Shown piece after piece: positions 123 through 13,032 of a stretch of 13,032 nt of DNA (positions within the stretch are counted from its first letter, which is position 1; every line of letters starts with the position of its first letter). Both the position numbers and the translations under genes were made by a program. The notes beneath the pieces were generated by a model that did not search any database, was not told the DNA's origin, and was given only the letters and a program-made list of their open reading frames with translations. Origin of the DNA: an uncultured Coriobacteriaceae bacterium (GTDB lineage Bacteria > Actinomycetota > Coriobacteriia > Coriobacteriales > Atopobiaceae); the NCBI GenBank assembly GCA_947367165.1, contig CANBCO010000002.1, positions 1 through 13,032 of the forward strand, given 5' to 3'.

Positions 123-2438
123 CTACAGCGAATCTTGCCTGGACAAGGCACTACAGAATGCATCTAAAATAACGCTTGCTAGCGTCTGCGCTTTAGCTGC
201 GGTAAAGCCCCCCGAGTAATCGTTTACCTCATTTGGCATCTTAAGAAGCACGTGGGGAGGATGCGCCTGACTCATTTCGCGCGCCATAGCAATCCTAATA
301 CCCAAATCGCGTGTGAGATTTGAAACTGCTACCAACGTAGTTCCCTTTTTGGGGTGCTCATCTTGGCAGGTAAGCTCGCAAAGAAACTCAATTTCTTCAC
401 CAGCACTTTCTTCGCTGTTAAGCAAAACGAGCCCCGAGTTTTCCGTGGTTGCACTCGCAAGATTCCACACTCTTGCTGCGATTGACCGGGTGATAGGATC
501 GCTTCCGAGAAGCCCAATCTTGCACGTTTCAAGCACTTCGGCAGCACGGGCAAAGCCTAAGGGAGTCCCTGCTAGCGGGCTCGTTCTGCCATCTTGCCCC
601 TCCCAGACGTGGTGTAGGCGCAAGACGGCTTGTGCGGTATCTGGAAAGCACATGCCATCTCCAAGCTCGCCAATGTTTTCTTGAAACTGTTTTACGGCGG
701 CTTCGGTGTGAGCTCCATACACGCCGTCAATAGCACCGGCGTGAAAGCCCAAAACGTTTAGGGCATTTTGTAGCATCTTCACATCATTTCCATGAAAATT
801 TGGAAGTCGCAAATAGAGCGTTCTGTCGCCTAATGTGTACGTTGCATCTACCAGAGCTTCCCAACATGCGTTGTCAACACAGTCGCCTTCTGGAAGATTG
901 ACATCCCTTCTAAATAAAGAAACCGCAGATTGGGTGCTCTTTTCAAAGGCATGGGCGGTTTTCTCGGCGGCGTAGTTAGTAAGGGCAGAGGCGAGAGGAT
1001 GTTCGCTTTTTGCCTCTATGCTCGCAGCAAGTGAGATGCAGGTATCCTTAGAAAACGTTGCGTTTGGAGAAAGCGTACAAGCCACAATGCGAGGGGCTCC
1101 TTTGGTAAGCGTTCCGGTCTTGTCAAAGATGACGGTGGTGAGCATGCCCGCTTGCTCAAGGGCATCGCTATCTTTAATGAGAATGCCCTGCTTGGCGGCT
1201 CGTCCCGTTCCCACCATGGTTGCCGTAGGAGTTGCAAGGCCAAGCGCACATGGGCATGCAACTACTATGACCGAGACGCCCACCATTAAGGCTCGCTCAA
1301 AGCCTGCTCCAGTTATAAAAAGCCAGATGAGAAAGGTGACAAGAGCTATAGTTAGAACACAAGGAACAAATATGGCACTTATGGTGTCGGCAAGACGCTG
1401 AACTGGGGGCTTTGCGGCCTGCGCTTCTTCTACAAGGTCAATGATGTGCGCAAGGGTGGTGTCTTGGCCAGCGCGCGTAATGCGCACTTCAAGTGTCCCT
1501 GTTGCGTTTATGGTGCCGCCGGTAACACTGCTACCTGCGGTTTTTTCTTGCAAAAACGCTTCTCCGGTAAGCATGGATTCGTCAACTGATGACGCCCCAC
1601 TCACGACTTCGCCATCTGCCGGAATGCGCTCTCCTGGCCTTATGACGCACACATCGCAAGGCTCAAGCTCTTCTGTGGGCTTTTCGACGAGCGCATCGCC
1701 CTGTTTTACCAGTGCGGTTTGCGGAGTAAGCTCCATCAATTCTTCTACCGCGCGCCCAGCCGTTCCTTTTGCACGTGCTTCAAGCATTTTTCCTAAAAGC
1801 ACAAAGGTGATTAGCATCGCACTTGTCTCAAAAGGAGCCATCGCGCCACTGTGCGAGCTCGGACTAAACGTGAGGTAGGTGGCGTAGGCAAAGGCGATAG
1901 TAGTTCCCAAAGAAACAAGCGTATCCATATTGGCACGTTTTGCTTTAAGGGCGCCCCACATCCCTTTGTAATAACGCGCGCCACAGACAAATTGCACCGG
2001 AATGCAGAGAAAAAAGCAGATGACATTAGTGACAAACATGACACGAGCGTGGTCGTGCGTGCCCAACAGTGCAGAAACTACATCCATGCCAACGCTGGTC
2101 ATAGAAAGGCTCATGATGGTGACGGTAAGCACGCATGCAACAATAAAAAGGACAAAGCTCCTTTTTTGACTGCGTATTTCTCGGACGCGTTTTTCTTCTG
2201 CTGCTTTTACCTTGCTTTTTGCATCAATTACCGCCGCCGAGAAACCCAACTTGTCAATTTTTGCAAGAATAGCTTCTGGCGTTGTGAGTTCAGGGTCATA
2301 CGTTACTCGTCCATTTGAGCGTGCAAGGTTTACTTGAATGGCCTGGACACCTTCCATTCTGCCAACCATTTTTTCTATGATAGAAGAGCAGCTTGCGCAT
2401 GTCATTCCCATGATATTAAGCTGAATTGTTTTTGTCAT
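123..2438 (-). CDS. Chimeric protein: truncated CopA-type copper P1B-ATPase fused to a peptidoglycan-binding (CwlM-like) C-terminus
   Basis: Residues 1-68 form a heavy-metal-associated domain with GMTCASC (11-17). Membrane helices follow from about 94, then the actuator TGE (291-293), the CPC metal-site motif (395-397), the phosphorylation motif DKTGT (439-443) and SEHPL of the nucleotide-binding domain (478-482). Together these identify a copper-exporting P1B-ATPase. Homology should continue to the hinge motif TGDGxNDxPAL and two more helices, but these are absent. From about residue 505 the protein resembles the end of one peptidoglycan-binding domain ([10 protein letters not shown]), then a complete second one (about 550-608) as in actinobacterial CwlM. 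An unrecognised tail follows, possibly a degenerate amidase-like fold. The reading frame is intact across the junction (about 915-945). Without the hinge the ATPase part cannot be expected to pump. It may be a real deletion fusion or an assembly chimera. The ribosome binding site AGGAGG stands just before the ATG. Confidence 0.85.
505..515 (-). repeat. One-mismatch copy of the 11-bp word
   Basis: CCGAGAAGCCC differs at one base from CCGAGAAACCC. It lies inside the peptidoglycan-binding part of the fusion gene. Other one-mismatch copies are at 957-967, 2562-2572, 4971-4981 and 8015-8025. Confidence 0.6.
2237..2247 (-). repeat. Exact copy 1 of GGGTTTCTCGG
   Basis: On the plus strand this reads CCGAGAAACCC. 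On the coding (minus) strand of the ATPase gene it encodes G-F-S of the HMA domain. A T precedes the word, giving the 12-mer TGGGTTTCTCGG shared by six of the seven copies. Confidence 0.9.
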
Positions 2439-2459
2439 GAAGCCTCCTTTTATTTACAG

Positions 2460-2512
2460 TAAGTGTACCCTTTTGCTGCTAGCACTTGTGGCATAAAAAA
2501 TCGCTACACTTA
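2460..2512. promoter_or_regulatory. Divergent promoter region between the ATPase fusion and serS
   Basis: TAAGTGTA (2460-2467) and TACACTTA (2505-2512) are perfect inverted copies 37 bases apart. Each provides a TACACT hexamer usable as a -10 box, one facing left into the ATPase gene and one facing right into serS. The -35 boxes are poor on both sides. The left copy is also half of a small dyad, TACAG-TAA-GTGTA (2455-2467), which loosely recalls cop-box type operators but has the wrong spacing for CopY. This is a tentative call. Confidence 0.4.
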
Positions 2513-2541
2513 TAACCCTACACGTAAAAAAAGGAGCATAC

Positions 2542-3837
2542 ATGCTGGATATAAAAAGCATCCGAGAAAACCCAGAAGTGCTTGATCAGGCTATGGCCTC
2601 AAGGAATAGCTCGTGGGATAAGGAGAAGTTTTTATCACTTGATACTGAGCGCAGAGAAGTAATTGGCGAGGTAGAAGCGCTTCAGGCAAAGCGAAACGCT
2701 GCTTCTAAAGAGATAGGAAGTCTCATGCGCACTGGCAAGCGCGAAGAAGCAGAAACGCTGAAAGCTGAGGTCGCTGCCCAAAAAGAAACCCTTTCTCAGC
2801 TTGAAGAAAGACGTGCGGCCGTAGATGCTGAGCTTACAACATTCATGAGTGCGATTCCAAATATTCCAGATCCGTCTGCTCCCATCGGAAAAGACGAGAG
2901 CGAAAATGTGGAAGTGCGCAGGTGGGGAACGCCGCGAGAGTTTTCGTTTACAGCTCAAGCGCACTGGGATTTAGGACCGCACCTTGGTATTATTGATTTT
3001 GAACGCGGAGTAAAGCTTGCCGGAAGCCGGTTTTATCTTCTTGGCGGTATGGGTGCTCGCCTGGAGCGCGCGCTTATTAACTTTTTTATAGACCTTCACC
3101 TACAAGCTGGCTATAAGGAGTGGTGGCCGCCGGTTATTACCAATGCAGAAACGCTTTACGGTACAGGCCAGCTCCCCAAATTTGAAGACGATCTGTTTCA
3201 CGTAAGTCCCAACTTTTATCTTATCTCCACTGCCGAGGTCGTTCTTACCAACATTCATCGTGATGAGATTTTGGCAGGAAGCGCGCTTCCACTTAACTAT
3301 ACTGCGTTTACTCCGTGTTTTCGCGAGGAAGCGGGTGCTGCCGGAAGGGACACCCGAGGCATTATCCGCGTGCACGAGTTTGACAAAGTGGAGATGGTTC
3401 GCTTTTCGGAGCCGCAAGAAAGCGACATACGCCTAGAAGAGATGACCGCAGAAGCCGAGGCATGCCTTCAAGCACTTGAGCTTCCCTATCGTGTAGTTTC
3501 GCTCTGCACAGGAGACTTGGGTTTCTCGGCAGCAAAAACATACGACTTAGAAGTGTGGTTGCCCAGCTATAACGCTTACAAAGAGATTAGCAGCTGTTCA
3601 AATTGTAGAGATTTTCAGGCGCGCAGGGCTAACATTCGCTATAAAGACCCCGAGAAGTTCAAGGGTTCGCGCTTTGTTCACACGCTGAACGGCTCTGGTT
3701 TGGCGGTTGGGCGCACAATGGCTGCGATTATTGAAAACTACCAGACTGAGCAGGGTACTGTGCGCATTCCTTCTGCGCTTCAGCCTTATATGGGTGGCGT
3801 GGAAGAAATCGTACCCGAGAAAAGCCCGCTTGCGTAG
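2542..3837 (+). CDS. serS: Seryl-tRNA synthetase
   Basis: This cytoplasmic class II aminoacyl-tRNA synthetase charges tRNA-Ser with serine using ATP. The first ~105 residues form the long antiparallel coiled-coil arm that recognises the long variable arm of tRNA-Ser, rich in Glu, Lys and Arg (about 37-100). The catalytic domain follows. Motif 2 is CFREEAGAAGRDTRG (259-273), and motif 3 is GLAVGRTMAAIIEN (386-399). The conserved stretch GFSAAKTYDLE (327-337) and the serine-pocket segment TAEV (230-233) are also present. At 431 residues it has normal bacterial length. AAGGAG sits 5 bases before the ATG, so the start is secure. It is transcribed away from the ATPase fusion and converges on two tRNA genes, one of which is a tRNA-Ser substrate of this enzyme. 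It carries an exact copy of the repeated 11-bp word at codons 326-330. Confidence 0.98.
   Translation: MLDIKSIRENPEVLDQAMASRNSSWDKEKFLSLDTERREVIGEVEALQAKRNAASKEIGSLMRTGKREEAETLKAEVAAQKETLSQLEERRAAVDAELTTFMSAIPNIPDPSAPIGKDESENVEVRRWGTPREFSFTAQAHWDLGPHLGIIDFERGVKLAGSRFYLLGGMGARLERALINFFIDLHLQAGYKEWWPPVITNAETLYGTGQLPKFEDDLFHVSPNFYLISTAEVVLTNIHRDEILAGSALPLNYTAFTPCFREEAGAAGRDTRGIIRVHEFDKVEMVRFSEPQESDIRLEEMTAEAEACLQALELPYRVVSLCTGDLGFSAAKTYDLEVWLPSYNAYKEISSCSNCRDFQARRANIRYKDPEKFKGSRFVHTLNGSGLAVGRTMAAIIENYQTEQGTVRIPSALQPYMGGVEEIVPEKSPLA
3519..3529 (+). repeat. Exact copy 2 of GGGTTTCTCGG
   Basis: The copy lies in the sense strand of serS and is read as G-F-S within a conserved synthetase segment. 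T precedes and C follows the word. Confidence 0.9.
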
Positions 3838-3868
3838 TTTGTATGTAGAGAGGGGAAAGAGAAAAGAC

Positions 3869-3945
3869 TGGTGCGCCGTATAGGATTCGAACCTATGACG
3901 TCCTGATTCGTAGTCAGGCCCTCTATCCAGCTGAGGTAACGGCGC
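3869..3945 (-). tRNA. tRNA-Arg (anticodon ACG)
   Basis: On the minus strand the acceptor stem GCGCCGT (3945-3939) pairs with ACGGCGC (3879-3873). Discriminator A (3872) and an encoded CCA (3871-3869) follow. The anticodon stem CCTGA/TCAGG encloses loop CTACGAA, giving anticodon ACG (3911-3909) for CGN arginine codons, with A34 normally edited to inosine by TadA. The T-arm has the usual GGTTCGAATCC pattern. Length without CCA is 74. It converges on serS, whose stop codon is 31 bases away. Confidence 0.97.
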
Positions 3946-3957
3946 AACTGGCTTTTA

Positions 3958-3986
3958 AGTATGACGCGAGCACCAAACAATGTCAA
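3958..3986 (-). promoter_or_regulatory. Promoter of tRNA-Arg
   Basis: On the minus strand a perfect -35 box TTGACA (3986-3981) is separated by 17 bases from CATACT (3963-3958). The expected start point lies a few bases before the mature tRNA 5' end at 3945. This indicates that tRNA-Arg has its own promoter rather than depending only on read-through from tRNA-Ser. Confidence 0.7.
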
Positions 3987-4012
3987 GTGCAATTACGGTT
4001 ACAAAGAGATAC

Positions 4013-4103
4013 TGGCGGAGAGCTGGGGATTTGAACCCCAGATAGGAGGTTATCCTATACTCGCTTAGCAGGCGAGCACCTTCAGCCACTCGGTCAGCTC
4101 TCC
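4013..4103 (-). tRNA. tRNA-Ser (anticodon GCT)
   Basis: On the minus strand the acceptor stem GGAGAGC (4103-4097) pairs with GCTCTCC (4023-4017). Discriminator G (4016) and an encoded CCA (4015-4013) follow. The anticodon stem CTCGC/GCGAG holds loop CTGCTAA, so the anticodon is GCT (4069-4067), reading AGC and AGT codons. The long variable arm (AGGATAACCTCCT) is the class II hallmark of tRNA-Ser, and it is the part the SerRS coiled-coil arm recognises. Length without CCA is 88. Confidence 0.97.
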
Positions 4104-4135
4104 ACGCATCATAGCGCCTAAAGCGGCGTCTAAGC

Positions 4136-4164
4136 ATTATAACCTAACCTACACTTTTTTGCTA
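4136..4164 (-). promoter_or_regulatory. Promoter of tRNA-Ser
   Basis: On the minus strand a perfect -10 box TATAAT (4141-4136) lies about 35 bases upstream of the mature tRNA 5' end. A weak -35 box TAGCAA (4164-4159) is placed 17 bases upstream of it. The -10 identity is strong and the -35 is poor. Confidence 0.6.
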
Positions 4165-4242
4165 CTCTGTTTCCTTTCATGACTGAGCGCAATTTGGAGT
4201 ATCATTGGTTTTGCTAAAACAGAACAGGTTTATCGGAGGCCT

Positions 4243-6150
4243 ATGAAAAGAAGAAATATTCTCATTTATGCTGTGATTATATTTGGACTTGTTAGCAGTC
4301 TTACGTCGTGTTTAGCACGAAACCTACCTTTTTTCTCTACGTATTCTATTCCAAAAGTAACGATTGAAGCTCAGGTTGATGAGGAAGGAAACGTGCGGGT
4401 TATAGAAGAGCGCACGTATCATTTTTCGAGTTCTGTCCATGGGGTGTATTGGTTACTTCCTATGGGTCAGTATGAAGGAAAAGATATTCGTCCGCAAGAT
4501 ATTTCTGTGGGAAAGTATGATGCTCAGGGAAGACTGCAAACGTTTTCCAGGAGTTCCTTGGGCACAAACTATACGTTTAGCGAAGTGCAAAAAGCAAACA
4601 ATGTCCAGGTTAAGGTCTATGACAGCAAAGCAGAGGGAGACGAGACGTATCGCATTTCGTACGAGCTAGACGGGCTTGCTCTGCGTTATCAAGATACGGC
4701 TGAGCTGTACTGGAAATTCATAAGCGACGGGTGGGACAAAAGAAGCGAAAACGTAACGTGCACCATCACGCTTCCTGTGCCCAAAGGTGAGCAGCTTGAA
4801 GGCGAGAAGAACGTGTGGGCATACGGACACGGTCCTTTGGATGGGGAGATTTCAGTTGGAAGTGATTGCGTTACGTATACCGTCCCATACGTGGGAAGTG
4901 ACGAGTTTGCAGAGGCGCGCATCTTGTTTCCCGAGTCCTGGCTGCCTTTGGCGCGCATGATGAGTGGGGCGCGTTTCTCGGCAGTGCAGGAAGAAGAGGA
5001 GACGTGGGCAAAAGAGGCAGATAGAGAGCGCATAGTTGCACAAGTGCTTGTCTGGGGCGCTTTTGCTTTTGTGCTTGTAGCAGGTGCTGTGGGAAGTTTG
5101 CTCGCCTATCGCACGCTCAAAAAATACCGAGAATACAACAGGCCACTTTTTAGCGACGAGTACTACAGGGATATTCCAAGTAAAGGTCATCCTGCTCTGC
5201 TGGGCTCGCTCTATCACCGAGGCAAGGCCGGGGCACCAGAGATGAGTGCGACGCTTATGCGGCTTGTGGATGAGGGCGTGTTCTCGTTTGACCCTGCAAA
5301 CACGCAAAAAGAAGGGGCGCTTCTGTATAACGAAAAAGCCGCGCAAAAGCTTACAGACGAGATCGATAAAGCGTTTGTCTCGCAAGTTCTTGTGCCGGTT
5401 TTAGAAAGCTCCGCCGAGAAACCCACCCAAACTATCTTGAACTTACACGAGCTGGAACGCTATGCAAAGAGCTCGCCTGCAAAATACCAGGCAGCTATTG
5501 ATGGCTGGAGAGCAAAAGTTGAAGCCGCCGGTGTGATGCGAGGTTTTTATGTTGCAAAACATAAGGTGAGCAAAGTGCCGTTGCTTTTAGGGCTCGTTTT
5601 TGCGGCGGTGGCGCTACTGTTAGGCCTTGGAGCATTCTTGTCTTTTGATGTTCCTATGGCCTTTTATGTAACCTTGCTACTACCTGCTGCGGCAATTGGA
5701 TTTTGTATCTATGTGTTGCAAAAAACGCCTTCGCTTTCTGAAGAAGCGATTGAGCTGGATGCAAAATTGCATGCGCTCAAGCATTGGCTAACAGACTTTA
5801 CTAAGCTTAATGAGGCAATTCCGCAAGACGTTGTGTTATGGAACCACCTTTTGGTTATGGCGTGTGTTCTTGGTGTCTCAAAAGAGGTACTGGAAGAGCT
5901 GAGTATACGCATGCCAGAGCTTGTTCAAAATCCTTCTTTTGTCTACTACTATCCGTTTATGTTTGGGTATGGCCCTAACCGTCTGTTTTATTCGCAGATG
6001 GGATCGGGAATGTATAAAAGCTATCACGCATCTGCGGCCTCTGTAGCAGCTTCCTCGGCCTCTTCTCATGGTGGGGGTGGCGGATTTAGTGGCGGCGGAG
6101 GCGGGGGCGTTGGTGGAGGCGGCGGTGGTGGCGCCTTTTCGAGGTCATGA
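4243..6150 (+). CDS. DUF2207 family membrane protein with Gly-rich C-terminus
   Basis: The N-terminus has a signal segment ending in a lipobox-like LTSC (20-23), so it may be a lipoprotein or simply have a cleaved signal peptide. Residues 35-235 form the extracytoplasmic DUF2207 domain, with its typical pattern VDEEGNVRVIEERTYHF (45-61) and HGVYW (66-70). A membrane helix follows at about 267-290, then a cytoplasmic winged-helix-like stretch (about 315-440, MRLVDEGVF) and two more helices (about 446-469 and 472-492). The end (609-632) is almost pure glycine, broken by FS and V, as is usual for this family. Function is unknown in the family, which is widespread in actinobacteria and Firmicutes. 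GGAGG (4235-4239) precedes the ATG. The next gene starts 41 bases downstream, so the two are probably cotranscribed. A weak promoter, TTTGGA (4193-4198) 16 bases before TAAAAC (4215-4220), is possible. Confidence 0.88.
   Translation: MKRRNILIYAVIIFGLVSSLTSCLARNLPFFSTYSIPKVTIEAQVDEEGNVRVIEERTYHFSSSVHGVYWLLPMGQYEGKDIRPQDISVGKYDAQGRLQTFSRSSLGTNYTFSEVQKANNVQVKVYDSKAEGDETYRISYELDGLALRYQDTAELYWKFISDGWDKRSENVTCTITLPVPKGEQLEGEKNVWAYGHGPLDGEISVGSDCVTYTVPYVGSDEFAEARILFPESWLPLARMMSGARFSAVQEEEETWAKEADRERIVAQVLVWGAFAFVLVAGAVGSLLAYRTLKKYREYNRPLFSDEYYRDIPSKGHPALLGSLYHRGKAGAPEMSATLMRLVDEGVFSFDPANTQKEGALLYNEKAAQKLTDEIDKAFVSQVLVPVLESSAEKPTQTILNLHELERYAKSSPAKYQAAIDGWRAKVEAAGVMRGFYVAKHKVSKVPLLLGLVFAAVALLLGLGAFLSFDVPMAFYVTLLLPAAAIGFCIYVLQKTPSLSEEAIELDAKLHALKHWLTDFTKLNEAIPQDVVLWNHLLVMACVLGVSKEVLEELSIRMPELVQNPSFVYYYPFMFGYGPNRLFYSQMGSGMYKSYHASAASVAASSASSHGGGGGFSGGGGGGVGGGGGGGAFSRS
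5414..5424 (-). repeat. Exact copy 3 of GGGTTTCTCGG
   Basis: It reads CCGAGAAACCC on the plus strand, antisense within the DUF2207 gene, and is translated there as E-K-P. Flanked as GCCGAGAAACCCACC, it matches the copy at 7613 on the Pro/Thr side. Confidence 0.9.
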
Positions 6151-6191
6151 CGAGGGTGCTATGAGCTGCGTTACCACAGGAATGAGTAGGT

Positions 6192-6848
6192 ATGGATGAC
6201 GTTTCTTTAAACACAGGAGAACTTTGCTTGGGAAATCCTGCACTCATTTGCAGGTGGCGACTTTGCCAAGGTGCACTGCCTTTTTTAGACCGTCATATGC
6301 GAGGACTCGAAAAAAGGAGCGTGCGTACAACCGATGGGCGCGAACTCATCACGCCTGAGTTTGTGGCCTGGGCAAAGCAGCATATAGAAGCGCATCTTAT
6401 ACCGCAAAAAAACGCGGAAACGTCACAAGAAGTGCTTATGCTTGTTGTGGGAGAGCTGGGAGCAGCGGTTATGAGTAAGGGTGCCTACGTTTCTCTTGAA
6501 GACACAAGCAAAGAGGCGCTTTTTGCCAGAGCAAAGATGAGTGAGACAGAGCGAAAACGTACAGGCGTTGCTCCTGAGGTGCTGTTCTCGGAGACAAAAG
6601 ACGGGCTTACAGTTTATACAGATAGTGGCAGTGCTTTAAGTGCGCTTGCAAGCTTAGGCCTTGATCTTGCAGCTACGCTAGGCGTTTCTGTGAACTATGA
6701 GATGCTTAACAAGGTGCCAGCTGAGCCTGTGGCGCTTTTCTCGGATGAACACGGAATAGTTGTAGCAGAGAGTGTTACTGCAGCAGAAGCCCCTACCCTT
6801 TGCGCTCTTTCAAAAAAAGTGGAAGACTTCTACGCACAGTATTCATAA
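6192..6848 (+). CDS. Unrecognised 218-residue protein
   Basis: I do not recognise a family. The protein has no signal peptide or membrane segment and should be cytoplasmic. Visible features are a Cys-containing N-terminus (C12, C20, C25), a WAKQHIEAHL helix (55-64), a hydrophobic VLMLVVGELGAAVM stretch (about 81-94), and an Ala/Leu-rich segment SALSALASLGLDLAATLGVS (about 147-166). Near the end, LFSDEHGIVVAES (182-194) has the look of a beta-hairpin. That phrase vaguely recalls fold-type IV aminotransferases, but no lysine or other diagnostic motif supports this. The start at 6192 has AGGAATGAGTAGG upstream. An in-frame alternative upstream is excluded because the ATG at 6161 opens only a 12-codon frame that overlaps this start. 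It follows the DUF2207 gene by 41 bases and probably shares its transcript. Confidence 0.75.
   Translation: MDDVSLNTGELCLGNPALICRWRLCQGALPFLDRHMRGLEKRSVRTTDGRELITPEFVAWAKQHIEAHLIPQKNAETSQEVLMLVVGELGAAVMSKGAYVSLEDTSKEALFARAKMSETERKRTGVAPEVLFSETKDGLTVYTDSGSALSALASLGLDLAATLGVSVNYEMLNKVPAEPVALFSDEHGIVVAESVTAAEAPTLCALSKKVEDFYAQYS
6737..6744 (+). repeat. Core 8-mer TTTCTCGG (partial copy of the repeated word)
   Basis: GCTTTTCTCGG (6734-6744) keeps the 8-bp core with two changes at the 5' end. The same 11-mer variant occurs at 3815-3825 in the opposite orientation. Other core-only copies are at 2177-2184. Confidence 0.5.
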
Positions 6849-6952
6849 TGTGTAGTCTTCACACGTCACGCCACGTAGCCTCAATTTGAATGAAAAGGAG
6901 CGGCTCGATTTGTGACACTTTTGCTTTATAGGGGCAAAAAAGCCTACTTAAC

Positions 6953-6981
6953 TTGAAAAACTTTTCAAAAGATGGTAGTAT
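6953..6981 (+). promoter_or_regulatory. Promoter with overlapping palindromic operator candidate
   Basis: TTGAAA (6953-6958) and TAGTAT (6976-6981) are separated by exactly 17 bases, the best-formed promoter on the plus strand of this window. The -35 box is part of a perfect 7-2-7 palindrome, TTGAAAA-AC-TTTTCAA (6953-6968). A repressor bound there would block RNA polymerase. The promoter is placed for the Pce-like gene, whose ATG is 33 bases past the -10. Confidence 0.7.
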
Positions 6982-7014
6982 GCTCTAGCACTATTTTGGA
7001 AAGGAAGATGTGAT

Positions 7015-9072
7015 ATGAAATGTATGCTAAAAATGTTCGCATTTTTAACAATTGTAGCAGGGGTTTTAAGTGCAGGGGTGCTCGTAACGTCAGCTCAAGC
7101 GGAGCCAAATTCTGCTCCTGCCCCAACACAAACTGCACAAATTCATATACTGGCAGAAAACTATATGGACGCCATTGTGCTTGAGAGCACCGATGAAAAT
7201 GGTGAGCCCATCTTTGGTATTGTTGACTCTGGACAGGGAGACGATTGGCCTGATGGCAGCGATGCACGTTATCCTGATAGACCAGGCATTACCAAATGGG
7301 ACTCTATCAAAGAAGAAATGGTTGATTACCTAAACCAGCTTGGGGTTACCAACGAAAATCTCGAGTTTTACCTGGGTACGCACGTGCATTCAGACCACAT
7401 TGGCACGGCGGCGTTCCTCATTCAAAAGTATCAACCCAAACGCGTTTATGCTCAGCCTTATAGAGATGAGCTCATTAATAATACTGCTCGCCTATGGGAT
7501 AACCTCTATCAGTATGACCAGCTCAGAAAAGCAGCGTCTCAGGTGGGGGCGACTTTTATTCAATATTTTGATACGAGTGCCGAGGTAGATCCCGTGCGCG
7601 ACCCTGAGGTTCCCGAGAAACCCACCAAAACAACAACACTCGATGGCATCACCATTGAGGCTTATACGGCAAATCCTGCCTTTGAGCTTGGAGACATGGA
7701 GCTTCAAGTCATGCATTACTTTAATGTTGACAATGCACCTGCAAGTTCTATGCGAGATGCCAATTCGCTTTCGCTTGGGGTTAAGGTGACCTCAAAAACA
7801 ACGGGAATGAATGCGTTTTTATCGGGCGATATAGATAATTACGTATCGAGTTATGCACCTGCAAGTAACGCCGAAGATAAGCTCGCGTCTCAAGTGGGAA
7901 AGGTCGACTTTTTAAAACTTGGCCACCACGGGCTTGAGGGCTCTAACACTGAGAAGTATTTGCGGACACTTTCTCCTAAAGTAGCATTTATGACAGGACA
8001 ATTTACCCTCGTACCCGAGAAAACCTACACCACGCTCGCTGCATTACAAACTCAGTTTTATCAAGCTGATGAAGTGAGGCAAACGGGAGCCGTGGCATTT
8101 TCTGTTGATCTTGCCAAGAAAGTGGGCTCGCTTCCTGCGCTTTATAACACAGGAAACACAGCTTCTGAGCCGCATTTGCGGACAGCTAACGAAGGCGAGC
8201 ATCATACGTGGTACTACGTAAATGGTCTCCCAACGCCGCATGATGGCCTCGTAAAAGAGGGCGACAACTGGGCGTACTTTGAAAACGTGGCGTATTCAGT
8301 TCAATCAAAATGGATTTGGCACAATAATGGTTGGATCTACTATGACGATAAAGGCCTTTTAGAGCATAACGGCTGGACTTTTGTACAAGATACGTACGGA
8401 TCGCACTGGTATTACTTTACTAATGACGGAACTATGCTTAAAAAGCAGTGGATTGAAGACCCCGTAACGCACGCGTTATTTTACGTGGATGATTCCGGAT
8501 ATATGCAACAAGGTTGGAATTGGGTTGAAGACGCGTGGCGTTATTTTGATCCAAGTAACGGAGCGTTGTATTCTGGCTGGAATACGATTGGAGGAGATTT
8601 GTATTATTTAGACCCAAGTAATAAAGGAGCTATGGCAAAAGATGGCTGGGTCTGGATCGACAATGCGTGGCGTTATGCTGATAGTTCTGGACACATATAC
8701 CACTTTGGGTGGAGCTGGATTGAAGACGGCTGGTACTATCTTGACGCAAAAGATAACGGGCGTATGTATAAAGGATGGCAACAGATTGATGGCATCTGGT
8801 ACTACATGCTTGACAACGGAAAGATGCAAAAAGGTTGGCAGTGGATTGGCTGGGCTTGGTTCTATTTTAATGAGAGCGGGTATATGCAAAGTGGATGGCA
8901 TTGGATAGATTCTGCTTGGTATTATTTGGATGTGCCAGGCGGTGCTTTGCGCCAAGGATGGTTTTGGCTGGACAGCGACAATGCCTGGTATTACAGTTAT
9001 GCAGGCGGAGCCATGGCTCACGATTGCTGGATAGGAAACTACTGGCTTACTTCAAGTGGAGCCATGCTCTAG
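7015..9072 (+). CDS. pce: Secreted Pce/CbpE-like phosphorylcholine esterase with choline-binding repeats
   Basis: A signal peptide (1-29, ending AQA) is followed by a metallo-beta-lactamase fold. Its metal motif is HVHSDH (123-128), with further likely ligands D272 in SGDID and H304/H305 in LGHHG. Phrases such as WPDGSDARYP (78-87) and ARLWDNLYQYD (158-168) closely match, from memory, pneumococcal Pce (CbpE). That enzyme removes phosphorylcholine from teichoic acids and from PAF-like lipids. Residues from about 432 to the end form about 12 Trp/Tyr-rich repeats of 20-24 residues (GWxWIDxxWYYLDxxG type), which bind choline or glucan and hold the protein on the wall. The substrate here is inferred. 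AAGGAAG (7001-7007) favours the first of three clustered ATGs. The next gene starts 9 bases after the stop, so the two are an operon. An exact copy of the 11-bp word lies at codons 200-203. Confidence 0.88.
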   Translation: MKCMLKMFAFLTIVAGVLSAGVLVTSAQAEPNSAPAPTQTAQIHILAENYMDAIVLESTDENGEPIFGIVDSGQGDDWPDGSDARYPDRPGITKWDSIKEEMVDYLNQLGVTNENLEFYLGTHVHSDHIGTAAFLIQKYQPKRVYAQPYRDELINNTARLWDNLYQYDQLRKAASQVGATFIQYFDTSAEVDPVRDPEVPEKPTKTTTLDGITIEAYTANPAFELGDMELQVMHYFNVDNAPASSMRDANSLSLGVKVTSKTTGMNAFLSGDIDNYVSSYAPASNAEDKLASQVGKVDFLKLGHHGLEGSNTEKYLRTLSPKVAFMTGQFTLVPEKTYTTLAALQTQFYQADEVRQTGAVAFSVDLAKKVGSLPALYNTGNTASEPHLRTANEGEHHTWYYVNGLPTPHDGLVKEGDNWAYFENVAYSVQSKWIWHNNGWIYYDDKGLLEHNGWTFVQDTYGSHWYYFTNDGTMLKKQWIEDPVTHALFYVDDSGYMQQGWNWVEDAWRYFDPSNGALYSGWNTIGGDLYYLDPSNKGAMAKDGWVWIDNAWRYADSSGHIYHFGWSWIEDGWYYLDAKDNGRMYKGWQQIDGIWYYMLDNGKMQKGWQWIGWAWFYFNESGYMQSGWHWIDSAWYYLDVPGGALRQGWFWLDSDNAWYYSYAGGAMAHDCWIGNYWLTSSGAML
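7613..7623 (-). repeat. Exact copy 4 of GGGTTTCTCGG
   Basis: It reads CCGAGAAACCC on the plus strand, antisense in the Pce-like gene, and is translated as E-K-P in a Pro-rich spacer that looks like an insert within the catalytic domain. Confidence 0.9.
8308..9069 (+). repeat. Choline/cell-wall-binding repeat region (coding)
   Basis: About twelve degenerate repeats of 60-72 bases encode GW(x)W(I/V)(D/E)xxWYYLDxxGxM(x)xG units. The DNA copies have diverged considerably, so this is an old array rather than a recent tandem expansion. The last unit (CWIGNYWLTSSGAML) is shortened, a common way for such arrays to end. Confidence 0.85.
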
Positions 9073-9081
9073 GGAGAGGCG

Positions 9082-10200
9082 ATGGCTCACATAGGTTCAA
9101 AAAAAGAACGAACCAAAAAAGTAGTGAGAGCAGGGAAAGTTGGTATTGTTGTCAACTTACTGCTCTCAGCTTTTAAAGCACTTGTGGGTTTCTCGGCAGG
9201 CTCTATTGCCATTATTTTAGATGCGGTAAACAATTTAACCGATGCCATTTCTAACATTGTTACCATTTTGGGAACGGTACTAGCCAATAAACCGCCCGAT
9301 GCCAAGCACCCTTATGGGTATGGGCGCGTGGAATACATGGCTTCTATGATAATCTCTGGCATTATTCTCTACGCTGGAATCTCTGCGTTAGTGGAGTCGG
9401 TAAAAAAGATTATCTGGCCTGAGCGCGCCGACTATACCACACCAACACTTATTGTTGTGAGTATTGCTATTGTGGTAAAGATTTGCATGTCGCTTTACTT
9501 TCGCAAAAAAGGAAAAGAGACGGACTCTTTTGCCCTTTTAGTGAGCTCGGTAGATGCAAGAACCGACGTCTTTTTAACGGGAGGCACGTTACTTTCTGCC
9601 TTGCTCTCTCTTGCGTTTTCTATAGATATTGACGGGCTCGTAGGTGCCATTATTGCTGTTGGCATTATCAAAGCAGGTGTTGAGGCTATGAAAGATTCTG
9701 TGGGGCCTGTTATAGGAGACGCTGTTGATTCGCGTTTTGCAGCTTCTTTTACCGAGTTTATGCTTTCATATGAAGAAGTTGAAGGCGTCTACGATATCTC
9801 TGTGGACGATTACGGCCCTACACATTCTTTAGCAACGTGTCATATTGAAGTGGCCGATACGCTTACTGCGCGGCAAATTCATGAGCTCAGCAGGCGAATT
9901 GGAAGAGATGCGTATAAGAAGTATCGTATTTTGCTTACTATTGGCATTTATGCTACTAATACCCACGGAAAGTTTGCAAAAGAAAAGGAGGAGATTCTGG
10001 CGATTGTGGCTAAGCATCCTTCTATAAAAAGCGTCCATGCGCTCTATATTGATCCTAAAACACACTTTATCGACTTTGATATTGTCCTTGAATTCAGCGC
10101 AAATGGAAAGAAAGTCCGAGAAGCACTGGCACATGATTTAGCCGAGAAGTTCCCCAAATATAGGTTCTCGATAGTGGAAGACGTGGACTATAGCTCTTAA
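9082..10200 (+). CDS. Cation diffusion facilitator (CDF) family metal efflux protein
   Basis: This membrane antiporter exports divalent metal (zinc, iron or manganese) in exchange for protons. About six helices span residues 18-205. Family signatures are SIAIILDAVNNLTDAISN (41-58), with metal-site D47, N51 and D54, then HPYGYGRVEYM (76-86) and SSVDARTDVF (155-164), with D158 and D162. The cytoplasmic C-terminal domain (about 210-290) contains the usual VEGVYDISVDDYGP and HIEV strands. At 372 residues it is longer than a typical ~300-residue CDF. The extra ~75 residues (KHPSIKSVHALYIDPKTHFIDFDIVLEF region) look like a second ferredoxin-like regulatory domain. The ATG lies 9 bases after the Pce-like stop with GGGAGAGG between, so translation is probably coupled. 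Metal specificity cannot be read from the sequence. It holds an exact 11-bp word at codons 35-39. Confidence 0.92.
   Translation: MAHIGSKKERTKKVVRAGKVGIVVNLLLSAFKALVGFSAGSIAIILDAVNNLTDAISNIVTILGTVLANKPPDAKHPYGYGRVEYMASMIISGIILYAGISALVESVKKIIWPERADYTTPTLIVVSIAIVVKICMSLYFRKKGKETDSFALLVSSVDARTDVFLTGGTLLSALLSLAFSIDIDGLVGAIIAVGIIKAGVEAMKDSVGPVIGDAVDSRFAASFTEFMLSYEEVEGVYDISVDDYGPTHSLATCHIEVADTLTARQIHELSRRIGRDAYKKYRILLTIGIYATNTHGKFAKEKEEILAIVAKHPSIKSVHALYIDPKTHFIDFDIVLEFSANGKKVREALAHDLAEKFPKYRFSIVEDVDYSS
9186..9196 (+). repeat. Exact copy 5 of GGGTTTCTCGG
   Basis: The copy is on the sense strand of the CDF gene and is read as G-F-S in the first membrane helix. T precedes and C follows the word, as in copies 1 to 3 (read in the same orientation). 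Confidence 0.9.
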
Positions 10201-10215
10201 GATAGCGCGGGCTAG

Positions 10216-10247
10216 GCGCGACAACGGGCTACATCCCGTTGTCCCGC
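10216..10247 (+). terminator. Strong hairpin ending the Pce-CDF unit
   Basis: A 13-bp stem with a single mismatch (10216-10228 with 10235-10247; inner arms GACAACGGG and CCCGTTGTC) closes a 6-base loop, CTACAT. It starts 16 bases after the CDF stop. The tract after it (TCTGTTGTTGTTT) is T-rich but interrupted, so termination may be intrinsic but not ideal. It may also serve the opposing minus-strand gene that ends at 10294. Confidence 0.7.
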
Positions 10248-10275
10248 TCTGTTGTTGTTTAAGCTGGAAGGTGGA

Positions 10276-10286
10276 GGGTTTCTCGG
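10276..10286 (+). repeat. Exact copy 6 of GGGTTTCTCGG (intergenic)
   Basis: It lies between the hairpin after the CDF gene and the stop codon of the minus-strand small protein, so no protein constraint can explain it. It is the only exact copy not preceded by T. Confidence 0.9.
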
Positions 10287-10293
10287 ATAGAGA

Positions 10294-10560
10294 TTAGTCT
10301 TGACCTTCGACGTTTTCTTCTACTCGGGCATATTGGTGGCCACTTGCATCGGTGCCTACTTCAATGCGCTCGGAGACTTCGTTATCTTGGGCGTCTTCAA
10401 TTGATTTTGCTACTATTTGCTCGGGATAACGGTCTTCGATGTTATAGTTAGGCTTGATAGAAGCTTCCATTGAGTGCTTTTCGTTTTCGAGCTCGCCTTC
10501 TCTCACTACGTCATCGGTAAGGGTTTTTTCAACTTTTTTTGCATTAAGCTCTTCTGCCAT
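10294..10560 (-). CDS. Small acidic protein of unknown function (88 residues)
   Basis: The start chosen is the ATG at 10560, because AAAGGAG stands 6 bases upstream. A longer in-frame start at 10602 would place that ribosome binding site inside the gene. The protein starts MAEELNAKKVEKTL and is rich in Glu and Asp, with an overall strongly negative charge. It has no signal peptide, membrane segment, cysteine or tryptophan. The central part NYNIEDRYPEQIVAKSIEDA and the end GHQYARVEENVEGQD give no family match I know. Likely a soluble, partly disordered cytoplasmic protein. It is divergent from pth2 and convergent with the CDF gene. Confidence 0.7.
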   Translation of the reverse strand: MAEELNAKKVEKTLTDDVVREGELENEKHSMEASIKPNYNIEDRYPEQIVAKSIEDAQDNEVSERIEVGTDASGHQYARVEENVEGQD

Positions 10561-10655
10561 GGTGGCTCCTTTCTCGTGGGTCTTTGTAAGTATTGTTCCC
10601 ATATTTTGCTTGTCTTAATTCGCTACTATAGAAAAGAATAGATTAGGAGGCGTTC

Positions 10656-11081
10656 ATGAGTTTTTATAAAGCTAAGCAAATGATTGTTATGCGGCGTGAT
10701 TTAAAGATGCGTAAAGGAAAAATTGCTGCTCAAGCGGGGCATGCTTGTGTGCAAGCTACGCTTCAAGCTCTGATGAGCCATCGGGAGTTGGAAAAATTGC
10801 GGCGTCAGGGCAATACGCTCTATGTGGAGTCTCGCGATAAGTATAACCCGATGGCTGATTGGTTTAATGAAGGAGTGGCAAAAGTGTGCGTGTATGTGGA
10901 TTCAGAACGGGAACTTTTAGATATTGCCGAGAAGGGAAAAGAGGCCGGTTTTATCTATGCCCTTATTAGAGATGCGGGTCTCACCGAGTTTCATGGCGAG
11001 ACCACGCTAACTTGTCTTGCATTTGAGCCTTTATATGACAAGCAAATTGACCCTATAACAGGAGATTTGCCTCTCTATTAA
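10656..11081 (+). CDS. pth2: Peptidyl-tRNA hydrolase, Pth2 type
   Basis: Pth2 enzymes cleave the ester bond of peptidyl-tRNA released from stalled ribosomes, recycling tRNA in the cytoplasm. The N-terminus KQMIVMRRDLKMRKGKIAAQ (7-26) is the diagnostic Pth2 segment with the catalytic Lys in MRKGK. QAGHACV (26-32), ALIRDAGLTEF (102-112) and TCLAFEPL (119-126) complete the core fold. This is the family typical of archaea and eukaryotes and is scattered in bacteria. It is unrelated to the usual bacterial Pth. Length (141) is slightly above the ~115-120 norm because of an insert around residues 55-73 (YVESRDKYNPMADWFNEG). TTAGGAGG lies 6 bases before the ATG. Its TAA overlaps the stop of the convergent dehydrogenase gene. 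Confidence 0.93.
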   Translation: MSFYKAKQMIVMRRDLKMRKGKIAAQAGHACVQATLQALMSHRELEKLRRQGNTLYVESRDKYNPMADWFNEGVAKVCVYVDSERELLDIAEKGKEAGFIYALIRDAGLTEFHGETTLTCLAFEPLYDKQIDPITGDLPLY

Positions 11082-12262
11082 AGGCTTGCTTGGTAAATCT
11101 CTCTAATGTCTTCTGGGTAAAGGTCAATAAAGCCGTGAATGACGCCTGCTTGTCCTGCGGCATGTTTTGCCATTGCATCAAAGTGAGTGGTATCAATAGC
11201 AAGCTTGCTTAAAGAAGGTGCTAACTGTAAATCGTTTACAAAAAATGTTTGTAGCGCGTCAATGCCTGCAAGTGCTTTGTCTAGATCCGAGAGTTCTTGT
11301 GAGGTTATACCAAAGACTTGCTCGGCAAATTGAACAAACTTGGGCAAGGTATGCTCTTGGTCTTTTGCTAATACGTGACGCATCCAATGTGGCGTGAGAA
11401 TGGCAAGCCCAAGACCGTGAGTGATGTCGTAGTAGGCAGAAACTTCGTGCTCGATTGGGTGAACTGACCACGCCTGTGTTTTTCCGCCGTTTACAAAGCC
11501 GTTTATTGCCCAGGTAGAAGCCCACATGAGATTTGCGCGGGCTTCGTAGTCATCACCTTTATTCATAGCACGTGGAGCAAACTTTATAACAGTACGCAAC
11601 AGGCCTTCCATAAAGGTGTCAAGAAAGAAGAGATCTTTATCTTGCGAAAAGTAAGCTTCGAGCGTATGTGAGATGATGTCGGCACTTCCCGCTGCTGTTT
11701 GGAAAGGAGAAACAGTAAAGGTATTTGTTGGGTCAAGAAAACTTACTTTGGGAAGCAACTGGGGAAATGCTCGGCCTATCTTTTCATTAGTGGCAAGATT
11801 GGTGATGACAGCGCCAGCATCCATTTCGCTTCCTGTGGCAGCAAGAGTAAGTACGGTAAGGAGTGGTAATGCCTTTGTTACTTTGGGCCTGGTAGGCGTA
11901 AACCATTCCCAAGGGTCAATATCAGAACAGGCTGCGGCGCAGATAAATTTGGAACAGTCTATGACTGAACCTCCTCCTACAGCAAGGACGACGTCGATGT
12001 TGTGTTTTTTACAGAGCTCGCCTCCTTCACGAACGCTTTCAATTCTTGGATTAGGGTCAATGTCAGAGAGTTCTGTCACTTGAAGGTCAAACTGGGCAAG
12101 TTGCTCAAGCACTTTTTTGTAAAGTCCCGTTTTTTTAATAGAACCCCCACCATAAGTAAGCAGTACGCGTTTTCCGTATGAAGCAACTTCTTTTCCAAGA
12201 TGCGAAAACTCATCTGGGCCAAAATAAATTTTTGTAGGAACATGGTATTCAAAATTAATCAC
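11078..12262 (-). CDS. Iron-containing (group III) alcohol dehydrogenase, butanol dehydrogenase-like
   Basis: This NAD(P)H-dependent cytoplasmic oxidoreductase probably interconverts aldehydes and alcohols during fermentation. The nucleotide-binding half carries YGGGSIKKTGLY (37-48) and VGGGSVIDCSK (95-105), then ATGSEMD (142-148). The metal-binding half has AGSADIISHTLE (191-202) and HPIEHE...ITHGLGLA (268-286), giving likely ligands D195, H199, H268 and H282. The resemblance is closest to clostridial BdhA/B and E. coli YqhD. Length (394) is normal. The start is GTG, supported by AAGGAGAG 4 bases upstream and by MINFEYHVPTKIYFG matching usual N-termini. It is notable for containing no copy of the repeated 11-bp word or even its 7-bp core. 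The last four bases overlap pth2. Confidence 0.95.
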   Translation of the reverse strand: MINFEYHVPTKIYFGPDEFSHLGKEVASYGKRVLLTYGGGSIKKTGLYKKVLEQLAQFDLQVTELSDIDPNPRIESVREGGELCKKHNIDVVLAVGGGSVIDCSKFICAAACSDIDPWEWFTPTRPKVTKALPLLTVLTLAATGSEMDAGAVITNLATNEKIGRAFPQLLPKVSFLDPTNTFTVSPFQTAAGSADIISHTLEAYFSQDKDLFFLDTFMEGLLRTVIKFAPRAMNKGDDYEARANLMWASTWAINGFVNGGKTQAWSVHPIEHEVSAYYDITHGLGLAILTPHWMRHVLAKDQEHTLPKFVQFAEQVFGITSQELSDLDKALAGIDALQTFFVNDLQLAPSLSKLAIDTTHFDAMAKHAAGQAGVIHGFIDLYPEDIREIYQASL

Positions 12263-12557
12263 AAGCTCTCCTTTTGATTGATTTGTTTTATCATACTCCT
12301 TTTAAACCACATGTATCCAGGGAAACATGCTTTTTACAAAATCTGACGCGTTCACGTTCTATTTTGGAAAGATCAATTCTTCTCTCTTTTTTGCGGCGTA
12401 GTTATTCTTTTTAATATTGGATTGTTTTACTTTATAAAAAAAAGAATTGTGAGGGTGAGGAATTAAAGCAGCAAGTTTTGTTTACTAGTAAAAAGAAGAT
12501 TGAACACTTTTGGGAATATACTATGAAAGATGCACCCCTTCTAGAGAAAGAGCGCAC
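12263..12557. promoter_or_regulatory. AT-rich divergent intergenic region
   Basis: This region holds upstream signals for the dehydrogenase (minus) and the membrane protein (plus). On the minus strand TTGTAA followed 17 bases later by ATACAT is a possible promoter. It partly overlaps an imperfect dyad, ATGTATCC-AG-GGAAACAT (about 12311-12328). On the plus side TATACT (12517-12522) could be a -10 box, without a convincing -35. A perfect 12-bp palindrome is listed separately. No open reading frame with a ribosome binding site and no RNA gene were recognised here. Confidence 0.4.
12481..12492. promoter_or_regulatory. Perfect 12-bp palindrome, operator candidate
   Basis: TTTACTAGTAAA is fully self-complementary and lies about 25 bases upstream of the TATACT hexamer preceding the membrane-protein gene. 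The position suits a regulator binding site. No regulator is known. Confidence 0.35.
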
Positions 12558-13032
12558 ATGAAAATAGAAGCATTTAGCGATTGGATTAAAGAAGCACCTA
12601 AACCAACCAAACATGAAAAAGAGTGTGCTGGCGAGGGCATTCTTCACAAAAACGGCAAGTTGAGCACGCCACAGTTTGTAACACTTTTTCATCATACAGT
12701 TAGCCAAACTACAGCCGTGTATTTTATCTTATCTCTCGTAGCGGCTGGGTTTCTCGGAATCTTTTTTATACAGCTTGTTGTACAAACCATGCAGGCGGTG
12801 CTCCAAGGCCACTACACTGGAAACATCGAGGTCACACTTTTTGTGTTTTCCATTGAGCTTCTGCTTATTTGTCTTTTGGTGGCGGGCTTTTGCATTTTGG
12901 CTCGGCGAATGCTTTTTGGAAAAACGAAACACAGACTTGCGCTTTGCGAGTGGATGATTGTTCTTTTAGGGCTCGTGCTTATCTGCCATTTAATGGTATT
13001 TGGAGTGAACTTTTCATTGGTGTGTTATGGCC
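12558..13032 (+). CDS. Membrane protein of unknown function, truncated by the window end
   Basis: An open frame begins with ATG at 12558 and continues for 158 codons without a stop to the right edge, so the 3' end is missing. The first ~45 residues are charged and cytoplasmic in appearance (MKIEAFSDWIKEAPKPTKHE). Three hydrophobic helices follow at about 53-75, 92-115 and 132-152. The loop ARRMLFGKTKHR (115-126) is basic, which suggests it is cytoplasmic. I do not recognise a family. The ribosome binding site AGAAAGAG (12544-12551) is moderate. An exact copy of the 11-bp word is read here in a different frame (G-F-L-G, codons 64-67). Confidence 0.75.
   Translation, partial: MKIEAFSDWIKEAPKPTKHEKECAGEGILHKNGKLSTPQFVTLFHHTVSQTTAVYFILSLVAAGFLGIFFIQLVVQTMQAVLQGHYTGNIEVTLFVFSIELLLICLLVAGFCILARRMLFGKTKHRLALCEWMIVLLGLVLICHLMVFGVNFSLVCYG
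12747..12757 (+). repeat. Exact copy 7 of GGGTTTCTCGG
   Basis: It is on the sense strand of the partial membrane-protein gene, read as GGG TTT CTC GG, a different frame from the copies in the ATPase, serS and CDF genes. Confidence 0.9.

Follow-up and report, generated by a model that had tools for sequence, protein, structure and literature searches.

The first 13,032 nucleotides of contig CANBCO010000002.1 (assembly GCA_947367165.1, an uncultured Coriobacteriaceae bacterium placed by GTDB in the Atopobiaceae), hereafter the window, carry seven copies of an 11-bp word, GGGTTTCTCGG, which we regard as probably a genome-wide DNA recognition word, and most likely one by which the competence system of an actinobacterium picks out DNA of its own kind for uptake. 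The window's own genome (G000; 618,578 bases in 133 contigs, 57% complete, probably a metagenome-assembled genome) contains 131 copies, 64 forward and 67 reverse, and the reversed word, taken as a control, occurs on neither strand (0 and 0). For the 40 of 133 contigs on which detailed statistics were computed (296,687 bases), 85 copies were observed against 0.133 expected under a third-order Markov model, and in the ranking of 11-mers a G/C homopolymer alone stood above the word. Such homopolymer runs are over-represented in this genome in their own right, the 11-base run being counted 34 times in these contigs. Words below a minimum count were dropped from all rankings (Markov, dialect and codon-shuffle), as were low-complexity words from the dialect ranking. 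A sequence-only reading of the window had called the word highly over-represented and proposed that it might be an uptake sequence or some other word recognised throughout the genome; both statements are supported at the scale of the genome, and it is from the genomic signature that we infer the uptake role, the receptor and the drive. Within the window, the seven exact and five one-mismatch copies it had reported were all present, so that 12 matches with at most one mismatch compare with a mean of 0.13 and a largest value of 2 in 200 dinucleotide-preserving shuffles. Its further counts were correct as well: six of the seven exact copies extend to the 12-mer TGGGTTTCTCGG, there are 14 occurrences of the core TTTCTCGG and 21 of TTCTCGG, and one exact copy lies between open reading frames (ORFs), the other six within them.

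The 11-mer is part of a unit that is in fact longer and less strictly defined. In the 40 contigs the core TTTCTCGG was counted 286 times against 17 expected (0.96 per kb), a 16.6-fold excess, compared with at most 1.5-fold for 19 of its 24 single substitutions and 1.9- to 3.6-fold for the other five. Aligning 222 sites on GNKTTTCTCGG revealed GG at positions -3 and -2, Y at -1, then G N K TTTCTCGG, followed on the 3' side by C or A, any base, and A or G. The unit is therefore a motif of some degeneracy that spans up to about 17 bp. Beyond about -3 to +13 the flanks are close to background, which argues against a dispersed repeat with conserved flanks, an explanation the sequence-only reading had asked to be looked for.

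Protein coding does not account for the word, as that reading had already held. In 259 called genes of the own genome we found 71 copies, compared with a mean of 0.75 and a largest value of 2 in 60 synonymous-codon shuffles. All six frame placements are used (sense 8, 8 and 18; antisense 8, 21 and 8), giving 34 sense and 37 antisense copies, and the density is higher in intergenic (0.61 per kb) than in coding sequence (0.26 per kb). The gene calls are longest-ORF calls made for this analysis, and the coding and intergenic copies sum to 86, one above the 85 counted, likely through overlap of called ORFs. Furthermore, at 73 word sites aligned to the best match elsewhere (matches below 40% identity were dropped), amino-acid identity was 0.478, against 0.615 at random sites of the same genes, where none of 2000 permutations was as low; the values were 0.582 at residue-matched sites and 0.586 for 300 8-mers of the same composition. 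The word either occupies less conserved places in proteins or has altered the protein there.

Strand and distribution were followed on a relative, G027, which is a single 2.0-Mb contig, the own genome being divided into 133. Here the copies divide into 106 and 99 by strand, and the polarity test used 187 of the 205 positions (12 reverse positions beyond 1,902,676 and six forward positions were left out). With the best choice of origin and terminus (arcs of 0.6-1.4 Mb) polarity reached 57.2%, compared with a shuffled mean of 58.8%, and 82 of 100 strand shuffles were at least as polar as observed. Strand polarity, which had been named as the sign of Chi or KOPS (the FtsK-orienting word), was thus looked for and is absent from this relative, which speaks against both. 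Counts per 100 kb had a variance-to-mean ratio of 1.22, and no large-scale clustering was seen. The bin at 800-900 kb holds two words among the positions used, against a bin mean of 9.7, and may be an acquired island.

Neighbouring cores no more than 40 nt apart were inverted in all 26 cases, 8 of them in the own genome and 18 in G027 (first 400 kb), and direct in none. Of these close pairs, 2 of 8 in the own genome and 11 of 18 in G027 were called intergenic, compared with 33 of 286 and 61 of 276 single sites, respectively. Inverted pairing is described for all genomes with a DNA uptake sequence (DUS) in one study (PMC3630211), and the placing of uptake words in terminators is reported for both Neisseriaceae and Pasteurellaceae in another (PMC13020248).

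Across genera the word persists and its positions turn over. Among 21 best-hit orthologues shared with the available part of G027 (65% identity), 0 of 25 sites of the own genome are words in G027, and 0 of 11 sites of G027 are words in the own genome; most of these sites align without a gap, 2 of 36 falling in one. Smaller sets likewise showed no shared sites in either direction (0/4 and 0/1 for G029, 0/4 and 0/2 for G028); best matches below 45% identity were dropped throughout. At the word site in serS, TTCTCGG was present in one of 13 readable relatives (52 named loci scanned).

Among 140 genomes of the family, 127 contain the 11-mer at least once, and four are rich in it: the own genome (genus g1, 131 copies), G027 (g15, 205), G028 (g15, 220; Olsenella sp. 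KGMB02461, Atopobiaceae, Coriobacteriia) and G029 (g16, 113), the remainder holding 0 to 22 copies. The window's genome is confirmed as belonging to the Atopobiaceae within the Coriobacteriia. The degenerate form GNKTTTCTCGG is present in 393 of 396 genomes of the class, with high counts in G000 (374; reversed control 5), G027 (413; 31), G028 (417; 27) and G029 (441; 12), as well as in G316 (413; 27), which belongs to another family of the same order. Counts of 233 and 185 were found in G108 and G091 (controls 12 and 24), and moderate ones in genus g2 (59-105), G022 (67), G026 (81) and G060 (90), with up to 90 in a small number of further genomes. A second form, GNKYTTCTCGGCA, is richest in G027 (484; reversed control 3), G028 (475; 4) and G316 (401; 2) and reaches a lower density in the own genome (47; 0). 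Together, the counts of the two forms indicate that the edges change around a fixed core. In a serS tree, which covers one gene, with unsettled bootstrap and G316 on a long branch, G000 adjoins G027 and G028 (96/87), with the low-word G021 and then G029 outside them (96/93), so that, within the family, the word-rich genera come close to forming a clade, with G316 and G091/G108 placed elsewhere.

Whether an older, shorter word exists in other genera was approached in samples of 20 to 60 kb per genome, in which Glu-Lys codons confound the search in GC-rich genera; the named serS loci (counts for the first 53 of 80) are too short for ranking genera. YTTCTCG was about 2- to 4-fold over codon shuffle in many samples, with little or no excess in G016, G017, G030 and G051, and other 7-mers outrank it in many samples after codon shuffle. 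Given this confounding and these higher-ranking 7-mers, the uneven excess is no more than suggestive of such a word. Related dialects in related taxa are borne out for G000 against G027, G028 and G316, codon effects confounding the weaker cases. The searches also returned other words. In G027, CTACTAAGTAC has 21 copies in 400 kb, clustered near 62-64, 150-152, 330 and 344 kb with several close inverted pairs, and looks like a small repeat element. A 40-kb sample of G040 contains TGCGCTTTTCC 24 times and ACGGAAAAGCG 20 times, and further strongly over-represented words are GGGGTACTCCC in G006, TTGGGGTTGGG in G043 (Olsenella phocaeensis, also of the Atopobiaceae in the Coriobacteriia) and AAGCGCTT in G003 and G316.

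The presence of competence genes, a check proposed at the outset, was confirmed in relatives, whereas the own genome, at 57% completeness, shows DprA alone. ComEC was detected in 137 of 140 family genomes and in seven of seven further genomes of the class, including G316, DprA in 13 of 13 genomes tested, including the own genome, and T2SSE ATPases in 13 of 14 and 3 of 4 genomes, the own genome being the miss both times. G029 has a tad-type locus encoding a T2SSE ATPase (TadA), two T2SSF proteins (TadB/C), a ParA-like protein (TadZ), an SAF protein (RcpC/CpaB), TadE, a 740-residue TadE/G-like protein and one protein without a Pfam match that is named TadF by its position; candidate Tad minor pilins are among these proteins, and ComEA-ComEC lie away from the locus. 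G027 matches all eight proteins of the locus. Transformation of Micrococcus luteus, which is likewise an actinobacterium, is described as depending on tad genes and comEC (PMC4322843).

Taken together, the density, the lack of polarity, the frame independence, the low conservation of the sites, their turnover, the inverted pairs and the dialects compose an uptake-word signature, by analogy that of the Neisseria and Haemophilus type. In the proposed mechanism, a surface receptor would prefer word-bearing DNA, candidates being the Tad/Flp minor pilins TadE, TadF and TadG, or ComEA; ComEC would then move one strand inward, and DprA and RecA would recombine it. Words arising by point mutation would spread by biased gene conversion, because fragments that carry them would be taken up and recombined more often, and the endpoint would be roughly one core per kilobase, on either strand, in places where the protein can accommodate it.

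Several observations weigh against this interpretation. Each feature of the signature, taken alone, could fit another recognition protein. Inverted neighbours are also in modest excess at longer distances, beyond 40 nt (142 inverted and 96 direct in the own genome, 150 and 107 in G027) and still beyond 320 nt (107 and 72; 126 and 89), which would not be expected from uptake, and the inverted pairs, for which no terminator test was made, show no clear T-runs. The spacing of the word is no more even than random (coefficient of variation 1.03). Between G027 and G028, which are 93% identical, all three comparable sites are shared (19,230 aligned bases, after alignments below 300 bases or above 99.5% identity were dropped). 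G021 (g13) has few words in spite of its place inside the word-rich clade of the serS tree and is a candidate for natural loss of the word, and in a 40-kb sample of the word-rich G028 the 7-mers were counted 22 and 10 times against 11.5 and 9.2 in codon shuffles. As to machinery, ComEC and a T2SSE ATPase were not found in the own genome, nor was any match to Tad, ComEA or ComEC at E 1e-6 in 297 kb of it, absences that are uninformative at 57% completeness. ComEC and T2SSE/Tad-type ATPases are common to word-rich and word-poor genomes, so that the machinery is permissive evidence only, and G027 and G028 possess a second T2SSE ATPase of 374 residues, so that the filament could be another one. 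Neither a receptor nor a gene peculiar to the word-rich genomes was found; Flp pilin and prepilin peptidase were not among the genes searched for.

The main rival, which we consider much less probable than uptake, is a chromosome-organising or segregation protein of the nucleoid-associated or nucleoid-occlusion type that reads an asymmetric site along the whole chromosome. The spread over a single contig without a strand rule and the independence from reading frame would fit it equally well, and the presence of ComEC and a Tad-type ATPase does not track the word. However, the known words of chromosome organisers are mostly palindromic and are depleted or clustered in a macrodomain, whereas the present word is asymmetric and free of large-scale clustering, and such a protein alone would leave unexplained both the missing direct close pairs and the tens-fold differences in density between related genera.

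A Chi-like site governing a recombination nuclease would also be short, asymmetric and over-represented, yet Chi words are oriented with replication, and here the best polarity in G027 falls under its shuffled mean, sense and antisense copies in genes are close to equal (34 and 37), and the unit, at 11-17 bp, is hundreds-fold enriched; we therefore hold this reading to be improbable. Slightly less plausible still is a self-marker of a modification or defence system, recognised by a methylation-type motif. The variants between lineages do resemble the variety of modification motifs, but those motifs are short by comparison and as a rule lack a hundreds-fold enrichment, and eight strict bases with flanks are unlike them. 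An FtsK-orienting (KOPS) or terminus (matS) word would share the asymmetry and the genome-wide occurrence and is very unlikely, given neither polarity nor regional clustering in G027. Constraint from codons or from peptides such as G-F-S and E-K-P, possibly a short word inflated by Glu-Lys codons, explains part of the CTTCTCG excess in GC-rich genera (shuffle expectation about 11-26 per about 37 kb of genes); for the own genome it is refuted by the codon shuffles, the six placements, the denser intergenic copies and the less conserved sites, and overall it has next to no credibility. Equally negligible is an origin from fragments of a dispersed mobile repeat, which would account for the many copies and not for flanks almost without information beyond the motif or for orthologous alignments that are mostly ungapped at the sites.

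In the window, the exact copies within ORFs lie at 2237..2247 (-), on the strand of a P-type ATPase ORF (123-2438, minus strand); at 3519..3529 (+) in serS (2542-3837), where the word is translated as G-F-S-A; at 5414..5424 (-), antisense in a gene for a DUF2207 protein (4243-6150); at 7613..7623 (-), antisense in the gene at 7015-9072; at 9186..9196 (+) in a cation-efflux gene (9082-10200); and at 12747..12757 (+) in the ORF at 12510-13031. The intergenic copy, at 10276..10286 (+), falls between the end of one ORF at 10200 and the start of the next at 10294. Variants conforming to GNKTTTCTCGG are found at 957..967 (+), 2562..2572 (-) and 8015..8025 (-), each as GGTTTTCTCGG, at 4971..4981 (+) as GCGTTTCTCGG, and at 3815..3825 (-) and 6734..6744 (+), and the YTTCTCGG variant at 505..515 (-), GGGCTTCTCGG, has a form common in the related genus g15. 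The P-type ATPase ORF has HMA and E1-E2 domains and a partial hydrolase domain, and residues 550-590 within it form a peptidoglycan-binding domain (PF01471); its residues 520-771 had no match at E 1e-6 in the other loci searched, and it is either an odd fusion or a misassembly. The gene at 7015-9072 (+) encodes a metallo-beta-lactamase-fold protein fused to several choline-binding-type cell-wall repeats. No plasmid record was similar to the window.

In the literature searched, no paper mentions 'Coriobacteri' together with either 'DNA uptake sequence' or natural transformation and competence genes; among the matches listed, none reported an uptake word in a monoderm in its title or the start of its abstract, and none of the listed matches to the 8-mer itself dealt with such a word by its title. 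The Atopobiaceae word points to a further origin of self-recognition in transformation, this time among Actinomycetota and possibly by means of another pilus. More tentatively, and with the odds somewhat against it, an actinobacterial uptake-word system independent of those of Neisseria and Haemophilus may extend across Coriobacteriia, with a YTTCTCG(G) core, a Tad/Flp-pilus receptor and dialects such as GNKTTTCTCGG in the window's genus and GNKYTTCTCGGCA in g15 and G316; certain lineages would have amplified it strongly, with the rest having little or none of it, a pattern we hold equally tentatively. Such a system would mean that a monoderm takes up DNA in a sequence-specific way, something that a 2025 paper states does not occur (PMC12153270). 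An uptake word here would provide an independent case for testing why uptake words evolve and a handle on gene exchange in Coriobacteriia; otherwise it is still a very dense recognition word, whose reader protein can be sought by pull-down.

Compared with known systems, the word shares with Chi and KOPS that it is short, asymmetric and genome-wide, but those words are oriented with replication and this one has no orientation in G027. Micrococcus luteus is likewise a member of the Actinomycetota, and G029 and G027 resemble it in their tad, comEA/comEC and dprA genes; on the other hand, the main text of the Micrococcus luteus paper contains neither 'uptake sequence' nor 'sequence specific' (PMC4322843). 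The word is unrelated in sequence to the uptake signal sequence (USS) of Pasteurellaceae, and its flanking signal is a G-rich upstream half instead of downstream AT-tracts. The USS is asymmetric and dense, without strand preference, with a longer, weaker flanking motif and AT-tracts downstream, and apart from these tracts our word is like it in each of these respects. The DUS of Neisseriaceae is a word of 10-12 bp present about once per kilobase on both strands, and our word is like it in this. Again the sequence is unrelated, the host belongs to the Actinomycetota, the pilus is apparently of Tad/Flp instead of type IVa, and the word is known here from its genomic signature, with candidate receptors. 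Its occurrence in genic and intergenic sequence, its inverted pairs and its permissive locations nevertheless resemble what is described for the DUS, as does the division into dialects with a conserved inner core and edges that vary between genera (PMC3630211).

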